From: a virus
Strand: one strand, 5' to 3'
IMG/VR virus record: IMGVR_UViG_3300022839_000089
Location: 1-25,458 of that record
DNA: 25,458 nucleotides
Shown: positions 17,741 through 24,936 of the stretch, piece by piece
How positions within the stretch are numbered: position 1 is the first letter of the stretch
Layout: the number at the start of each line of letters is the position of its first letter
Position numbers and translations under genes: made by a program
The notes under the pieces: model-generated
Database searches by the model: none
The model's input: the letters and a program-made list of their open reading frames with translations, nothing else
What the model was told of the DNA's origin: nothing

Positions 17741-17790
17741 AAAAACTTAGGGGAGCGGACCCCCCTTCGTTTCTAATCTTTTGTAGATTA
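17741..17790 (-). terminator. Two hairpins after the capsid gene, the second terminator-like
   Basis: The first hairpin, TAATCT/AGATTA with a five-base loop (17774-17790), includes the TAA stop of the capsid gene. The second has AGGGG (17766-17762) pairing with CCCCT (17753-17749) around an eight-base loop, followed two bases later by G and TTTTT (17745-17741). Its stem is short and the U-run is separated by AAG, so termination is probably partial. That would raise capsid transcript over the downstream head-tail genes. Confidence 0.55.
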
Positions 17791-19173
17791 AGAGTCAGTA
17801 CGAATCAACTTAACAACCGATACATCGGTAGTGCCGTTGTTAGCACGCAACTGGTTGAAGCCGAGTGACTGGCTAGCAACAATTACGTTACGCTGGTTCA
17901 TTACTTCGTAATCCTGCTCTACAGATACACCGCGGAGACGTGGGATGACGTGGTTACGAACGTTAACACAGTAGCCTACAGAAGCAGTGTCGGCTTCAGT
18001 TTCGAGCTGGTCAGATACAACAACTGGAGTGCCATAGATAGCGCCGACCATGCCGGTGATCTTAGTAGCAATATCAGAACCTACGTCAGTGATGTCAGCA
18101 AAAGCTGGATCAGCAAGCAGATCATAATAACGAGCCTGAGATACGACATAAACGAGGTCAGAAGGCATCATGCCATACTTACCCATCAACTTACGACCAG
18201 CAAGGAACTCAGCAGCAGTAACTGCAACATCAGCACTAGCAGTAGAGTTAAGAACAGCAACGCTGTTAGTACCAGCAAGAGCTTCCAAGCCGTTAAAGCC
18301 TTCATTACCGCCAGAAGTACCATTGATGATTGCGTTGTCTACAGCACGAGCGTGAGCACGAGCAACAGAATCAATCAGCATAGGCATCAAGTTTACAAGT
18401 ACTTCTTCATCGATATTATTATCCATGAAAGTAGTAGAAACAAGACGGTTAGCTTTCAGAATTACCTGAGAAGCATTGTACTGGTTGCCCGTAACCTGTG
18501 GGTTGTTAGTCAAGTTACCAGCGGCAGCAGTATTAGAGCCCCAAGTAGCTGGGAGTGCGTCAGTCTGAATTGGCAATACTTGAGTTTGCGAGTTAATAGT
18601 AATCTCACGGAAAGCTTGAGCCAGTTTCAGTTCAAGCATGATTTCTTTCTCGATTTGAGTAGAAACGCCTTGAGCAATATCACCCGCACTAGCTGCGTAG
18701 TTTACGCCAGCTTTTTCGAACAAGTCCTGAGAATACTTAGTATCCCAGCCTTTGCCAGTCATTACGCCTAGCATGTGGCCAGTCATAAACTCTTTAGCAA
18801 ACTTAGAAATGTCGCCAGCGCCAGAACGGTCGCCGAAGCTTTTCTTGCTGTTTTGCATAGCAGTGATTTCAGCTGATTTCTCTTCGAGGTCTTTGCCGTA
18901 CTTAGCCATAACTTCGTCGAACTTAGCATCTTTCTCGTTAAGTTGCTTCTGTACGTCAGCCATAAGAGCCTCTACGCCAGTTTGTACGCCAGTCTTGACG
19001 CGGATGTTTTCGGCTTCGAGGGCGGTTGCTTTTGATACTTCAGCTTCAGCTACTGCTTTGGCTTCAGCTACGTCAGCTGCTTTTTGCTCGGCTTGCTTCA
19101 TTGCGATTTTAGCGGCTGTATCTTCAGCTACTTTCTTTGCAAAAGCTTCCAAGTCGATGTTTTGATTGTCCAT
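17788..19173 (-). CDS. Internally started scaffold-capsid protein (nested in frame)
   Basis: The ATG at 19173-19171 is codon 208 of the protease-capsid frame and begins MDNQNIDLEAFAKKVAED, which looks like a natural N-terminus of a capsid scaffold domain. The AGGAG at 19184-19180 with a 6-base spacer is stronger than the site of the full-length start. The product would be 461 residues, a normal size for an unprocessed HK97-type capsid protein. This would give many capsid copies per protease copy. The alternative is that only the full fusion is made and then cut. The ribosome site is seen in the sequence; its use is inferred. Confidence 0.6.
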   Translation of the reverse strand: MDNQNIDLEAFAKKVAEDTAAKIAMKQAEQKAADVAEAKAVAEAEVSKATALEAENIRVKTGVQTGVEALMADVQKQLNEKDAKFDEVMAKYGKDLEEKSAEITAMQNSKKSFGDRSGAGDISKFAKEFMTGHMLGVMTGKGWDTKYSQDLFEKAGVNYAASAGDIAQGVSTQIEKEIMLELKLAQAFREITINSQTQVLPIQTDALPATWGSNTAAAGNLTNNPQVTGNQYNASQVILKANRLVSTTFMDNNIDEEVLVNLMPMLIDSVARAHARAVDNAIINGTSGGNEGFNGLEALAGTNSVAVLNSTASADVAVTAAEFLAGRKLMGKYGMMPSDLVYVVSQARYYDLLADPAFADITDVGSDIATKITGMVGAIYGTPVVVSDQLETEADTASVGYCVNVRNHVIPRLRGVSVEQDYEVMNQRNVIVASQSLGFNQLRANNGTTDVSVVKLIRTDS

Positions 19174-19794
19174 TTTGATCTCCTGATCTGCGGAAATAAG
19201 TTCCGCGCTTTTCGGTGTGTGGTCACTAGCTATATTTGAAGAAGTATCTTCGTCCTTAGCCAGAGACTGACCGGCTAGATCTACACGATTAGTGAAAGTT
19301 TTTTTGAAGGCTTCGTACTCAGCATCTGAGTCAAAAGACTTCGCGAGCGAAAAAGTAGCTGCTTGATTGCAAGGTACGGAAACAACCGATACCTCAAATA
19401 ACTCAGCGTCCTTAATCATTAGTCCATCGGTTTCTTTAATGTAATCAGCATCCTTGACTCTGAAACCGACAGAAAAGGCTCCAAGAACACCGTCTTTAAC
19501 AAGTTCAGCTACATTGCCTGGGGCACTTTTGCTGATCTTACATTCTAACTCTAGGCCATTAGGTCCGGCTTTTACGCCAGTGGCTCTACCAATAGGTCTA
19601 TCATAATCATGATTAAATAGAATAATTGGATTTTTTTCAAAGTTCTTTAGTCCACCTTTCTGCCAAGCTTCTGCTGAAATAGTATCACCCGCGCGATCAA
19701 AATCAGCTGTACTTGCAAACCCTCGAATCATTACAGAACCATCGTCCTGTTCCTGGGTCTTAAAAGTAGACGTAAGATTAAAGATTTTATTCAT
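17788..19794 (-). CDS. Prohead protease fused to major capsid protein
   Basis: One 668-residue frame joins two normally separate genes. Residues 1 to about 155 are an HK97 gp4-like (U35) prohead protease, with His62 in FNHDYD, Ser108 in LGAFSVGF and an acidic residue in ELFEVSVV (131-138). Residues about 208-320 form a charged coiled-coil scaffold (delta domain) with ALA-rich heptads. From about 325 to the end is an HK97-fold capsid protein, with SVARAHARAVDNAIINGT in the spine helix region and SLGFNQLRANNGT near the C-terminus. The protease would cleave the scaffold and itself during head maturation. A second start at residue 208 has its own strong ribosome site, so the capsid part may also be made alone. 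AAGGA precedes the first ATG by about 7 bases. Confidence 0.92.
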   Translation of the reverse strand: MNKIFNLTSTFKTQEQDDGSVMIRGFASTADFDRAGDTISAEAWQKGGLKNFEKNPIILFNHDYDRPIGRATGVKAGPNGLELECKISKSAPGNVAELVKDGVLGAFSVGFRVKDADYIKETDGLMIKDAELFEVSVVSVPCNQAATFSLAKSFDSDAEYEAFKKTFTNRVDLAGQSLAKDEDTSSNIASDHTPKSAELISADQEIKMDNQNIDLEAFAKKVAEDTAAKIAMKQAEQKAADVAEAKAVAEAEVSKATALEAENIRVKTGVQTGVEALMADVQKQLNEKDAKFDEVMAKYGKDLEEKSAEITAMQNSKKSFGDRSGAGDISKFAKEFMTGHMLGVMTGKGWDTKYSQDLFEKAGVNYAASAGDIAQGVSTQIEKEIMLELKLAQAFREITINSQTQVLPIQTDALPATWGSNTAAAGNLTNNPQVTGNQYNASQVILKANRLVSTTFMDNNIDEEVLVNLMPMLIDSVARAHARAVDNAIINGTSGGNEGFNGLEALAGTNSVAVLNSTASADVAVTAAEFLAGRKLMGKYGMMPSDLVYVVSQARYYDLLADPAFADITDVGSDIATKITGMVGAIYGTPVVVSDQLETEADTASVGYCVNVRNHVIPRLRGVSVEQDYEVMNQRNVIVASQSLGFNQLRANNGTTDVSVVKLIRTDS
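19171..19184 (-). promoter_or_regulatory. Internal ribosome binding site and start codon for the capsid part
   Basis: The minus strand reads AGGAG, then ATCAAA, then ATG, an optimal arrangement inside the fused gene. The flanking codons (about 170-207) are a low-complexity, acidic linker between the protease and the scaffold, consistent with an old gene boundary. Confidence 0.65.
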
Positions 19795-21759: not shown

Positions 21760-23051
21760 TGTGCTGTTTGAAACGAGTAAAGTGCGTAGCGCAAACCATC
21801 TGCCATGTGAGAAGCCATGTTGTGCTTCGGCTTTTCCCTTATTAAGTTAGGGTTTGGATCCCACTGATAAGAGTCTAGGCATTTCAGAGATTCTTTGCAC
21901 TCCTGATCTACATATAGCTTATCATTGTCCACCACTCCGGCTACATGGCTTATACCATCGAGTACAGATTTCTTTGCATTAATAGTACTAATATCATAGT
22001 TTTGTGCAAAGTCAAATCGAGTTTGCTGTGCAGCGGAATCAATATAGATGTAGTCAATATCCCATCTTTCTATAAGTTTTTGTATTTCTTCGGCGTGTTG
22101 CTCTGTAGTACGCTCGGCATTGAAGTATTCGTCTACTAAGTAGTATTTATCCTCGTCCCAATCATAAGCGATTACACACATTGCTGTAGGATCTTTGAAA
22201 CCAACGTCCAACCCCGCAAAGACATCCATGCTACTAGTGTCGAACTGAGACAGGTCTTTGACTTGTTTTTCAAAGTCAAATTTCCAGATCTGACCTTCAT
22301 AAGTATTAAAATCAGCTTCGTACTCCTGCCTAAACTCTGCATCTGACATAGACTTGCGTGCTTCGTCAATATCTGCTTGGGCCATACGAGGGTTGTCAAG
22401 ATACGTTGCCTTAATAGAACACCATTGAGGAAAGTCATCTGAAAAACCTCTGTAGTAGAACTCAGAGAACCAGTTGTTGCGACCCCGTGGCGTGGATATA
22501 AATAGTGCTTTTGAATTAGGTTTATCTAGTGTGGGGCGAAGTGCTACGTTGAAAGCATCTTTTCCATCTGCTAGTGCAGCCTCATCAAATATAATGAGGT
22601 CGTAAGATCTTCCTACGCAGGAGTCTACTTGGTTGACCGAGCCCATTCTTACTGTAGACCCGTTAGAGATTTCGATAACTTTGTCTTTCGCATTATCTTT
22701 AGTAACTTCTAGGTCGAAGTGCTTAATCAAATTTCTTTGCAAATCAAAGGAGATCTGAGACAAGGAATAATTGGGGGACATGATAAGGATATTGGAGCCG
22801 GGCACTAAAGACACTAGCTGTCCAATAATATTTGCTATGTACGTCTTCCCCTGTCGCCGAGAAACGGCGGCACAGATAAAACGGTACTTAGGGTTGTTGA
22901 TCGCATTGATAATTGCTATCTGCGAGGGGAGGGGCTCAATTCCCAATAGTTCCATATATGGAGTTATTGGGAGCTTAAGAAACCTTGACTCAGATCCTAA
23001 TTCAACTATTTCAGCAGAGACAATGTCTCTTCTACTTACTTCGACGGCCAT
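21747..23051 (-). CDS. terL: Terminase large subunit
   Basis: This 434-residue packaging motor has an N-terminal ATPase and a C-terminal nuclease. Walker A is SRRQGKT at 64-70, Walker B LIIFDEAA at 152-159, and the coupling motif FISTPRG at 184-190. The nuclease begins with FAGLDVGFKDPTAM, giving Asp282, continues with YIYIDSAA (Asp338) and ends with HMADGLRYAL (Asp418), the three metal-binding acids of the RNase H-like fold. It binds the portal and drives DNA into the prohead. The start overlaps the peptidase gene by 16 bases. No recognisable small terminase is found in the window; it may be further upstream, or one of the small genes may serve. All key residues are present. Confidence 0.97.
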   Translation of the reverse strand: MAVEVSRRDIVSAEIVELGSESRFLKLPITPYMELLGIEPLPSQIAIINAINNPKYRFICAAVSRRQGKTYIANIIGQLVSLVPGSNILIMSPNYSLSQISFDLQRNLIKHFDLEVTKDNAKDKVIEISNGSTVRMGSVNQVDSCVGRSYDLIIFDEAALADGKDAFNVALRPTLDKPNSKALFISTPRGRNNWFSEFYYRGFSDDFPQWCSIKATYLDNPRMAQADIDEARKSMSDAEFRQEYEADFNTYEGQIWKFDFEKQVKDLSQFDTSSMDVFAGLDVGFKDPTAMCVIAYDWDEDKYYLVDEYFNAERTTEQHAEEIQKLIERWDIDYIYIDSAAQQTRFDFAQNYDISTINAKKSVLDGISHVAGVVDNDKLYVDQECKESLKCLDSYQWDPNPNLIREKPKHNMASHMADGLRYALYSFQTAQVSF

Positions 23052-23455
23052 TTAATCTTACCTATAATATATAATTTAGTAACAACGTCTATCGGGGTGT
23101 AAAACCACCGTGAAAACTTGTAACCCTGGGACTCTAGATGTTCTTTTGTATACCACTTGCGTTGAATGTTATCTATATACATACCGTCGTACCTAAGTAC
23201 TGCGTGCCCTACTCCGCCAACTCTACAAAAGCACATCTTAGCTTTAAAGGTTAGTATATCCTTCCAGAACCCTAGCATAGACTTATTGTTGATGTTGTAA
23301 AGAAGGGTTAAGGAGTAGTCCTCACAATCACCTTGATAAGGCTCTTCTTTTAATATAGTCCAAAACTCAGCAGTTTGAAACTGCTCGCTATCGTAACGAT
23401 ACTTCCAGGTCTTATTTAAGTGGTCTACTTTTTCTTGGTGCATATTATCCCTCAA
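23036..23455 (-). CDS. Transglutaminase-like cysteine peptidase (BTLCP / LapG type)
   Basis: This 139-residue protein carries the three hallmark motifs of the bacterial transglutaminase-like cysteine proteinase family (LapG-like): YQGDCEDYSLTLLY with Cys44, GHAVLRYDGMYIDN with His84 and Asp95, in the order C-H-D. There is a conserved Trp before the Cys (FWTILKE at 31-37). LapG cleaves a surface adhesin in the periplasm and needs calcium, but no signal peptide is present here, so the protein would stay in the cytoplasm unless released through a holin. Its place among lipoproteins and a holin-like protein suggests lysis or egress. Another reading is a virion or superinfection protein. The family call is good; the substrate is unknown. 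It overlaps the terminase start by 16 bases. Confidence 0.75.
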   Translation of the reverse strand: MRDNMHQEKVDHLNKTWKYRYDSEQFQTAEFWTILKEEPYQGDCEDYSLTLLYNINNKSMLGFWKDILTFKAKMCFCRVGGVGHAVLRYDGMYIDNIQRKWYTKEHLESQGYKFSRWFYTPIDVVTKLYIIGKIKWPSK

Positions 23456-23461
23456 TTGTGC

Positions 23462-23692
23462 TTATACTAGCTTTAGTAAGCCAGACAAGCCTTTTAGCAG
23501 TTTTCCTGTTAGTTCAATATTTGCACCTTCATGATTAACATCATGAGTTAGCTCAATATCAGTAAGTATCTCTACGTACTCTTCCTTACTTATAGTGCCA
23601 GCCTTATACTCATCTTGTAAGTCTAGTAGTAAGGCACCTATCTTTGCTAACTCAGTATTATCGCTGTTTACTAAATCTGTTAAGTATTCCAT
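23462..23692 (-). CDS. Small acidic protein of unknown function
   Basis: These 76 residues look like a helical protein with EYLTDLVNSDNTELAKIGALLLDLQDEY and, near the end, an amphipathic helix LTGKLLKGLSGLLKLV that resembles membrane-binding peptides. I do not recognise the family. It starts one base inside the upstream lipoprotein stop (TAATG) and ends seven bases before the peptidase start, so it belongs to the same transcript. Given its neighbours it might take part in lysis. Confidence 0.65.
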   Translation of the reverse strand: MEYLTDLVNSDNTELAKIGALLLDLQDEYKAGTISKEEYVEILTDIELTHDVNHEGANIELTGKLLKGLSGLLKLV

Positions 23693-24054
23693 TAGAACCT
23701 GCCCATTATAGCTTTTGCTATATTCTGACTCTGGCTATCAAGAGCTCTTTTCTTTAAGTTACAATAAGTAGGTGAAGGCTCTTTTTTGGCGTATAAGCCA
23801 GACCAAGTTTCCTTCATCTTATCTATCAGGCTTCCTATGTCAGTAGAGTTTTTACTATCTGAGTATAGACTTAACATGCTTACACTCTGATTAAGGTTTA
23901 CTAAGTCGCTTTCTTTAAGATTATCACAGTCTAAGTTAGTTACGTGTAGGCGTACTTTAACAGCTAGCATAGACTCATTATCATCATAGAAGCTCGGAAT
24001 ATTGCCACAACCTACTAGAAGGGCGATGTATAAAATAGGAAGTAATTTTCTCAT
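23692..24054 (-). CDS. Putative outer-membrane lipoprotein
   Basis: This 120-residue protein has a type II signal peptide: MRKLLPILYIALLVGC with the lipobox LVGC and Cys16 as the lipid anchor. The mature part (GNIPSFYDDNESM...) is mainly helical, with two further cysteines (CDN near 43-45 and YCNL near 97-100) that may pair. The last third is basic. Lipoproteins beside a membrane holin-like protein often act as spanins or as exclusion factors, but the length and lack of a Pro-rich stretch do not match a classic Rz1. It starts with an ATGA overlap on the EF-hand gene. A lysis role is inferred from context. Confidence 0.65.
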   Translation of the reverse strand: MRKLLPILYIALLVGCGNIPSFYDDNESMLAVKVRLHVTNLDCDNLKESDLVNLNQSVSMLSLYSDSKNSTDIGSLIDKMKETWSGLYAKKEPSPTYCNLKKRALDSQSQNIAKAIMGRF

Positions 24055-24362
24055 TTCTTCAGTGCCTGAGCGCCAAAGAAAGCACCAACAATTAATGATA
24101 CAGATACAAAGTAAGTAGGCGCCATATCACCTAAAGTCTTCGCCGCTGTATCGATACCTAATAGAGAAGCAAGTACAACAGCAAAGGGATATAACAACAT
24201 ACCGAACAATGCGAACCACGCCATCTTACGTTGAGCATCTCGCATTGCATCAGCATCATCGAGTTCTTTACGTTTAAACTCTAAGTACATTGCAGTTTCA
24301 GCATCGGATACATGTCCGTCACCATTAGTGTCTGCGGGGTGAAACTTAGGATCATCTACCAT
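24051..24362 (-). CDS. EF-hand, two-helix membrane protein (holin-like)
   Basis: Residues 11-22, DTNGDGHVSDAE, are a canonical EF-hand loop with Asp11, Asn13, Asp15, Ser19 and Glu22 in the metal positions. Beyond a charged helix (about 26-48) are two membrane segments, MAWFALFGMLLYPFAVVLASLLGI (split by a Pro) at about 48-71 and YFVSVSLIVGAFFGAQALKK at about 84-103, with a short linker between. Two helices and a short basic C-terminus match class II holins. The soluble calcium loop at the N-terminus is unusual for a holin. It sits between lipoproteins and before the peptidase, with a 7-base overlap upstream and 4 downstream. It could be a holin or a membrane sensor; the EF-hand is directly visible. 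Confidence 0.7.
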   Translation of the reverse strand: MVDDPKFHPADTNGDGHVSDAETAMYLEFKRKELDDADAMRDAQRKMAWFALFGMLLYPFAVVLASLLGIDTAAKTLGDMAPTYFVSVSLIVGAFFGAQALKK

Positions 24363-24661
24363 TTTACTTTATCCGCCCAATATGCCGCAGACATCTTCCC
24401 TTTAGCGATATTCTTTGCGTGTCGAGCTTTAAAGCTTCGACGCTTTGCTTTCATTGCGTCTGATTCTCCAGCCTTGGGCTTCCCTGCCGTCTTAGCTCCC
24501 TGCTGGCCGAAACGAATCGTTTTAATCTTACTGCCAGTCTTAGCTACAACAATATGAGACTTTTTGGCGTGTCCTGGAGTGCGTTTGGGTTTATTGAACC
24601 CCGTAACGCCTGCTCGTTTTATCCTTGAGTCTTTTTTCTTTGCTTTTCGCTTTGCTGGCAT
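24356..24661 (-). CDS. Basic conserved phage protein (DUF6321-like)
   Basis: This 101-residue protein has the pattern GVTGFNKPKRTPGHAKKSHIV, then IRFGQQGAKTAGKP, and RRSFKARHAKNIAKGKMSAAYWADKVKW. I recall this family (DUF6321) from many marine phages; the name is from memory. The charge is very high, with about a third Lys/Arg, so it probably binds DNA or RNA, or is packaged in the virion. The conserved C-terminal W-x-D-K-V-K-W is intact. AAGGAG lies about 8 bases before the ATG, a strong site. Function is unknown. Confidence 0.75.
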   Translation of the reverse strand: MPAKRKAKKKDSRIKRAGVTGFNKPKRTPGHAKKSHIVVAKTGSKIKTIRFGQQGAKTAGKPKAGESDAMKAKRRSFKARHAKNIAKGKMSAAYWADKVKW

Positions 24662-24672
24662 AAAGTTACTCC

Positions 24673-24849
24673 TTACTTCTGCTTAGTTGCACCTGAGATA
24701 TCTTCTCCGGCTGCAACTGCTATACCTTGTATCCCTGTACCTATTGCTCCGAGGCTGCTATTAGCAATTCCTTGTACACCATCAATACCGGCATTCAAGG
24801 TACCACAGGCTCCGAGTAGTAAGGCAGATACGATAACTAAATATTTCAT
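24673..24849 (-). CDS. Small entericidin-like lipoprotein
   Basis: The better start is ATG at 24849: AGGAG lies 6 bases upstream, whereas the earlier ATG at 24867 has no site. This gives 58 residues, MKYLVIVSALLLGAC with lipobox LGAC and Cys15. The mature peptide (GTLNAGIDGVQGIANSSLGAIG, then GIQGIAVAAGEDI) is Gly/Ala-rich, like entericidins, the small lipoproteins of enteric bacteria. A membrane-disturbing or exclusion role fits. It could also be a small spanin. Similarity to entericidin is by composition and pattern only. Confidence 0.65.
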   Translation of the reverse strand: MKYLVIVSALLLGACGTLNAGIDGVQGIANSSLGAIGTGIQGIAVAAGEDISGATKQK

Positions 24850-24877
24850 TAGGTTCTCCTTTTTCATGTGATTCCGA

Positions 24878-24897
24878 CGGTGGGTTCCTTCCCACTG
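24878..24897 (-). other. Short hairpin upstream of the lipoprotein gene
   Basis: GTGGG pairs with CCCAC across a six-base loop in the 88-base gap between two genes. No T-run follows, so it is not a terminator. Just beside it, 24902-24911 is a perfect 10-base palindrome (GGTACGTACC). Either could be a binding site or an RNA processing signal; no evidence separates these. Confidence 0.3.
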
Positions 24898-24936
24898 GTG
24901 CGGTACGTACCTCTTGACACGCAGAACATCATCCTT

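Follow-up and report, generated by a model that had tools for sequence, protein, structure and literature searches.

The question raised by this locus is whether a run of small genes before the TerL gene of a tailed phage forms a calcium-linked system for release from the host. The window, that is, the whole stretch of DNA that was analyzed, is the 25,458-nucleotide record IMGVR_UViG_3300022839_000089, which may be a fragment and whose genes lie on the minus strand. The original prediction had grouped five genes, encoding two lipoproteins (lipoproteins 1 and 2), a two-helix membrane protein with an EF-hand calcium loop (the EF protein), a small acidic protein and a peptidase of a calcium-dependent family, into one egress system of a new kind. 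All five were found as described (table 1), the two helices being predicted, and a gene for a basic protein that lies among them had been left out. Comparison with relatives leads to a different grouping: the EF protein is probably a class II-like holin carrying a calcium loop, accompanied by lipoprotein 2 and the acidic protein as an accessory pair. This reading is built on the family of EF relatives, the conservation of the loop, the two hydrophobic segments, and the synteny with endolysin and spanin genes, from which a topology, hole formation, control by calcium and a role for the pair can be proposed.

Relatives were collected with EF or lipoprotein 2 queries, keeping the best 80 matches per scan, and identical proteins were collapsed before counting. 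An EF-hand loop was scored over 12 residues (D at position 1, D/N at 3, D/N/S at 5, G at 6, a hydrophobic residue at 8, and E at 12). The pattern D-x-[ND]-x-[DN]-G-x-[ILV]-x-x-x-E is kept in 159 out of 161 unique EF members, and the remaining two look truncated; the loop is also present in 52 out of 53 CRP-1-like and 58 out of 59 DC31-like members. Only 1 of the 5,616 other unique open reading frames (ORFs) of 60–150 amino acids in these loci has the pattern, and it lacks a membrane segment; the loop is therefore not a chance occurrence. The best match of the EF family profile in the PDB is calmodulin (E = 2.7e-6), with which the family shares a canonical 12-residue loop (Dx[DN]xDG) and an exiting helix. 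Unlike calmodulin-type EF-hands, the protein has a single loop with no second EF hand for pairing and often too few residues ahead for an entering helix: 4–6 residues precede the loop in 41 of the 159 members, and the AlphaFold2 model of the window's protein contains no helix at this place.

Two hydrophobic segments are predicted by hydropathy in 153 out of 161 unique members. The AlphaFold2 model consists of a single helix (residues 20–67) and a second helix (residues 81–102), and the continuity of the former suggests a direct coupling of the loop to membrane helix 1. A fold search with the model returned one viral match with E below 0.001 (58% identical), and a search of the PDB gave nothing with E below 8. 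Charge and hydropathy predict a class II-type topology with both termini inside the cell. Class II holins such as S of phage 21 (definition from the available text of PMC9636201) are likewise short proteins with two membrane helices and a gene beside endolysin and spanin genes; the EF protein, as a putative holin, differs from them by its additional N-terminal EF-hand loop.

With the window's EF protein as the query, at least 594 relatives were found in viral contigs, and divergent members used as queries gave 48, 52, 193, and 276 further relatives in sets that may overlap. A search of 50,697 phage records identified the protein in Pelagibacter phage HTVC008M, four Melnitz strains, the Roseobacter phages CRP-1, CRP-9, CRP-207, CRP-345, and CRP-810, and Limnohabitans phage DC31, and a family relative in Limnohabitans phage DC33; it is listed as “hypothetical protein” in the phage records viewed. 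The gene is present as a single copy in 18 out of 19 larger records and absent from the 19th. At least 8 relatives were confirmed in host genomes, 6 of which span the loop region only.

The neighborhood of the EF gene was analyzed with endolysin and spanin profiles built in this work from seeds in these loci and checked against Pfam and PHROGs; clusters at 70% identity were counted for the endolysin context of the EF gene and for the neighbors of lipoprotein 2. An endolysin gene lies within 1.5 kb downstream of the EF gene in 57 out of 138 unique sequences (11 out of 14 clusters). Among 135 unique loci, 54 have an endolysin midpoint between +500 and +1499 bp downstream of the EF gene, and no midpoint lies beyond this range on that side. 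These endolysins belong to four profile types (GH19, GH108, GH24, and M15), with only a rough split between GH19 and GH108 because the two profiles cross-hit (57 shared, assigned by best score). Three kinds of cassettes were found. In the first (44/138 unique sequences), a gene for a holin-like protein with three transmembrane segments (3TM) lies between the EF and endolysin genes. In the second, the endolysin follows without a 3TM gene, with or without a spanin (13/138); this kind also includes 43 of the 53 unique CRP-1-like sequences, in which an M15 endolysin lies no more than 1.5 kb away; no 3TM holin-like gene was found there in any of the 53. In the isolates CRP-1 and CRP-9, the EF gene overlaps or adjoins the gene of a “putative endolysin.” In the third, found in DC31-like phages, the EF gene is followed by Rz/Rz1 and a peptidase. 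The DC31-like sequences were counted separately because the M15 profile missed most of their peptidases (44 out of 59 were scored as “no endolysin”); by sequence reading guided by DC31 and DC33, an Rz-like gene begins at the EF stop codon in 29 + 11 of the 59 unique sequences, and an Rz1-like lipoprotein and the peptidase cluster are present in 44 and 41, respectively. The EF gene fills the only recognizable holin slot in the CRP-1-like and DC31-like cassettes.

Lipoprotein 2 and the acidic protein are conserved as a pair: their genes adjoin each other in 74 out of 79 nonredundant lipoprotein 2 loci. Within 3 kb of lipoprotein 2, an EF gene is present in 24, a spanin in 18 and an endolysin in 10 of these loci, and at least one of the three in 37 (27 out of 51 clusters). 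The pair and the EF gene meet in locus L207 in the order lipoprotein 2, acidic protein, EF protein, i-spanin (Rz), overlapping o-spanin (Rz1), and GH19-type endolysin (the same in its near copy L245), and no other multi-helix protein was seen in this run. The acidic protein has a net charge of about −9. Lipoprotein 2 has a signal peptide with a lipobox, and its Cys16 and two further cysteines are invariant in 54 aligned members, among which Pfam gave a lipoprotein attachment-site match in 7 and nothing else informative; tblastn with the L056 version as the query gave no match in annotated phages. A structure model predicts a four-helix bundle with confidence (pLDDT 91.5). A PDB search with it returned only four-helix bundles of a common kind, with a best Foldseek E of 0.031 and a VIA Z of up to 13.3 (root mean square deviation 2.3 over 102 residues). 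These values lie in the range where the tool advises caution for helical bundles, and no structural relative was inferred. The lipobox and the position beside i- and o-spanin genes in some relatives are shared with Rz1-type o-spanins. Lipoprotein 2 differs from these by the predicted four-helix bundle and the two extra cysteines, and it is probably not the o-spanin because a separate o-spanin with a PHROG spanin match lies near it or adjoins it in relatives (L025, L056, L196, and L211).

Several observations weigh against the EF protein being a holin. In PHROGs and Pfam its members, unlike class II holins, have no match to a named holin family, and the profiles that they do match are families without an assigned function (phrog_27150 and others) or, below threshold, EF-hand profiles. 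The confidence of the AlphaFold2 model is moderate (pLDDT 80.9, pTM 0.50). In the window's own EF cluster, an endolysin lies directly downstream in 0 out of 72 unique sequences and a spanin within 1.5 kb in 7; 32 belong to the baseplate-hub/tape-measure operon of T4-like phages and 11 are close to TerL, whereas 22 have none of endolysin, spanin, hub/tape-measure operon, and TerL nearby. The conservation of the loop is the single observation that suggests calcium control of lysis, and phage DC33 has an EF relative without the calcium loop ahead of a nested Rz/Rz1 pair and an L-Ala-D-Glu peptidase (L326:2570-2887), which suggests that the loop is an add-on that the membrane part can dispense with. 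The 3TM gene between the EF and endolysin genes counts in the same direction: one 3TM seed matches GTA_holin_3TM in Pfam and a PHROG holin, and the EF protein may therefore be a partner instead of the holin in these cassettes. GTA_holin_3TM (PF11351 / phrog_3427) occurs in the same cassettes and adjoins the EF gene but has a gene and profile of its own and no EF loop. That the EF protein generally acts as an antiholin or co-holin of such a separate holin is nevertheless unlikely, as no 3TM gene was detected with it in the CRP-1-like, CRP-345-like, and DC31-like cassettes or in L207. Less likely again is a tail or hub function (e.g., a membrane-contacting plug) in the T4-like and window lineages with recruitment beside lysis genes elsewhere. 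A gp51-like hub gene does stand beside the EF gene in 33 out of 138 unique sequences, as in HTVC008M and Melnitz, where a tape-measure candidate is next; the tape-measure neighbor in T4-like loci has a Pfam match in 0 out of 4. But the same EF cluster includes members beside lysozyme or other endolysins and spanins (L044, L032, L077, L081, and L062 with lysozyme, o-spanin, and EF genes), of which L062, L077, and L081 stand next to spanins and lysozyme, and a calcium loop with a membrane hairpin would be unusual for a part of the virion. Lysozyme, spanin, and EF genes are scattered in the T4-like G010, and profiles detected no endolysin in the window-lineage stretches G001 (55 kb), G002, and G004, all of which are possibly partial.

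A serious contender, though not the favored reading, is that lipoprotein 2 and its acidic neighbor are a module for superinfection exclusion or for the envelope and lie near lysis genes by happenstance. This view agrees with the 42 out of 79 unique lipoprotein 2 loci that have no EF, spanin, or endolysin gene within 3 kb and with the other neighbors seen in many freshwater loci, but the pair is contiguous with Rz/Rz1 and the endolysin in L207 and overlaps the o-spanin gene in L056, L196, and L218. Very improbable is the view that all five genes form one calcium-driven egress system with the peptidase in the endolysin's stead. The peptidase retains a C44-H84-D95 triad, and D43 and E45 flank the cysteine in a motif comparable to the calcium motif D316-C317-E318 of DvhG (available text of PMC13090378); these motifs fit a calcium-dependent BTLCP peptidase, and the position between the EF and TerL genes is that of the endolysin in CRP-1. 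In contrast to LapG/BTLCP proteins (Peptidase_C93), it is short, has no visible signal peptide, is inconsistently linked to lysis genes, and scores below the Pfam cutoff (21.2 vs. 27 bits). It was found in 14 loci only, at varying positions, and within 3 kb of lipoprotein 2 in 4 out of 79 loci; DUF1353 genes, other genes, or nothing take its place between EF and TerL in relatives, and its counterpart in Vibrio phage K479 is surrounded by tRNAs, close to genes for RNA polymerase. A lysis function of the peptidase was accordingly set aside, with no lysis linkage in the two phage contexts examined among 54 homolog records. Lipoprotein 1 was found in 7 loci, and both genes are clade-specific extras. 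A unit of five genes was rejected because the full ordered set recurs only in near-identical contigs of apparently the same virus (L002, L188/L202). The supposed lysis role is thus supported for the EF protein, lipoprotein 2, and the acidic protein, which lie inside endolysin/spanin cassettes in relatives, and not for the peptidase or lipoprotein 1. Nor is the lysis type one that does without lysozyme and spanins, since relatives carry ordinary endolysins and spanins beside these genes; lysis profiles detected neither in the window, as had been stated of lysozyme and Rz/Rz1, an absence that is uninformative because the record may be a fragment.

As a class II-like holin, the EF protein would form an inner-membrane hairpin of two membrane helices with cytoplasmic N and C termini, and the single calcium loop at the N terminus would be joined to membrane helix 1 by a continuous helix. 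It would accumulate late and form lesions through which the endolysin passes or by which the membrane potential collapses. Calcium in seawater is high outside the cell and low in the cytoplasm, and a first membrane leak may therefore load the loop with calcium and synchronize triggering. Lipoprotein 2, the gene of which shares 4 bases with the end of the EF gene, and the acidic protein would be translationally coupled and serve as an accessory pair in the lysis region, with lipoprotein 2 as a membrane-anchored four-helix bundle that faces the periplasm. The broader picture of a common global family of calcium-gated holins in aquatic phages, including SAR11 myophages, in which entering external calcium fires lysis, aided by a four-helix lipoprotein of the outer membrane together with its acidic partner, is tentative and, taken as a whole, somewhat unlikely.

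Lysis timing is poorly known for phages of the most abundant marine bacteria, and no EF-hand holin was described in the open literature searched. According to the available text of the Melnitz paper, its authors found no other lysin-like gene and proposed a curli pore as a pinholin (PMC9004378). A term search found no word starting with “holin” in that paper (“pinholin” is used) or in the pelagimyophage paper; as neither names a holin, the EF family is a useful and concrete holin candidate for HTVC008M, Melnitz, several roseophages, and hundreds of uncultured aquatic phages. It suggests an ion signal for lysis, and calcium may help to set the timing of host burst.

Table 1. Coordinates of the EF gene, its parts, and its neighbors in the window.
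Feature	Position	Strand	Basis
EF-hand two-helix membrane protein, 103 aa, holin candidate	24051..24362	-	sequence, family profile, synteny
Calcium-type loop codons, 12 residues, D11-T-N-G-D-G-H-V-S-D-A-E22	24297..24332	-	sequence and family pattern
Predicted membrane helix 1, residues 50-68	24159..24215	-	hydropathy; AlphaFold2 helix 20-67 reaches into it from loop
Predicted membrane helix 2, residues 80-98	24069..24125	-	hydropathy; AlphaFold2 helix 81-102
Lipoprotein 2, 120 aa, four-helix bundle (predicted) with lipobox Cys16 and the invariant Cys43 and Cys98	23692..24054	-	
Small acidic helical protein, 76 aa, constant neighbor of lipoprotein 2 in relatives	23462..23692	-	
BTLCP-like cysteine peptidase, accessory, linkage inconsistent	23036..23455 (TTG start)	-	phrog_12671 E 1.2e-6, triad
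Basic protein (phrog_7595) of 101 aa, encoded between lipoprotein 1 and the EF protein	24356..24661	-	PHROG match
Lipoprotein 1, short, Gly-rich, clade-specific; module membership not established	24673..24849 (inner ATG), to 24867 (outer ATG)	-	

The genes in the window follow the order small basic proteins, lipoprotein 1, basic protein, EF protein, lipoprotein 2, acidic protein, peptidase, and TerL, and then HNH-like protein, portal candidate (so named from reading the sequence), protease-capsid ORF, and tail genes. For the peptidase, an ATG at 23443, after GAGG, is the likelier start. The match of the basic protein to phrog_7595 has an E value of 1.9e-40; this family (net charge about +28) was seen in 50 loci, all with an EF gene (the searches were mostly EF-anchored), and lies near the EF gene in roseophage-like loci too. 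XhlA-like genes upstream of the EF gene gave one weak Pfam XhlA match in 10 proteins scanned and were not used as evidence. In L011, L014, L020, L007, and L032, the position beside the EF gene is taken by a DUF1353 protein, and the order o-spanin-DUF1353-EF in L032 suggests a lysis-region role for them. In Melnitz-3 (L321:4174-4909, record 24173-24908), two adjoining “hypothetical” genes match spanin profiles (i-spanin phrog_739, E 5.3e-17; o-spanin by the profile built here), with a DUF1353 gene directly after. Relatives of the window have, upstream of the EF region, a block of genes for proteins that look secreted (L309, at ~47.9-50.5 kb of G001, and L200:952-3132). The TerL of the window is nearest to those of Vibrio phages with genomes of 112-121 kb (52% identity). 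At 17788-19794, the window contains a 668-aa ORF whose N-terminal part resembles a head maturation protease and whose C-terminal part resembles a major head protein, an apparent protease-capsid fusion.

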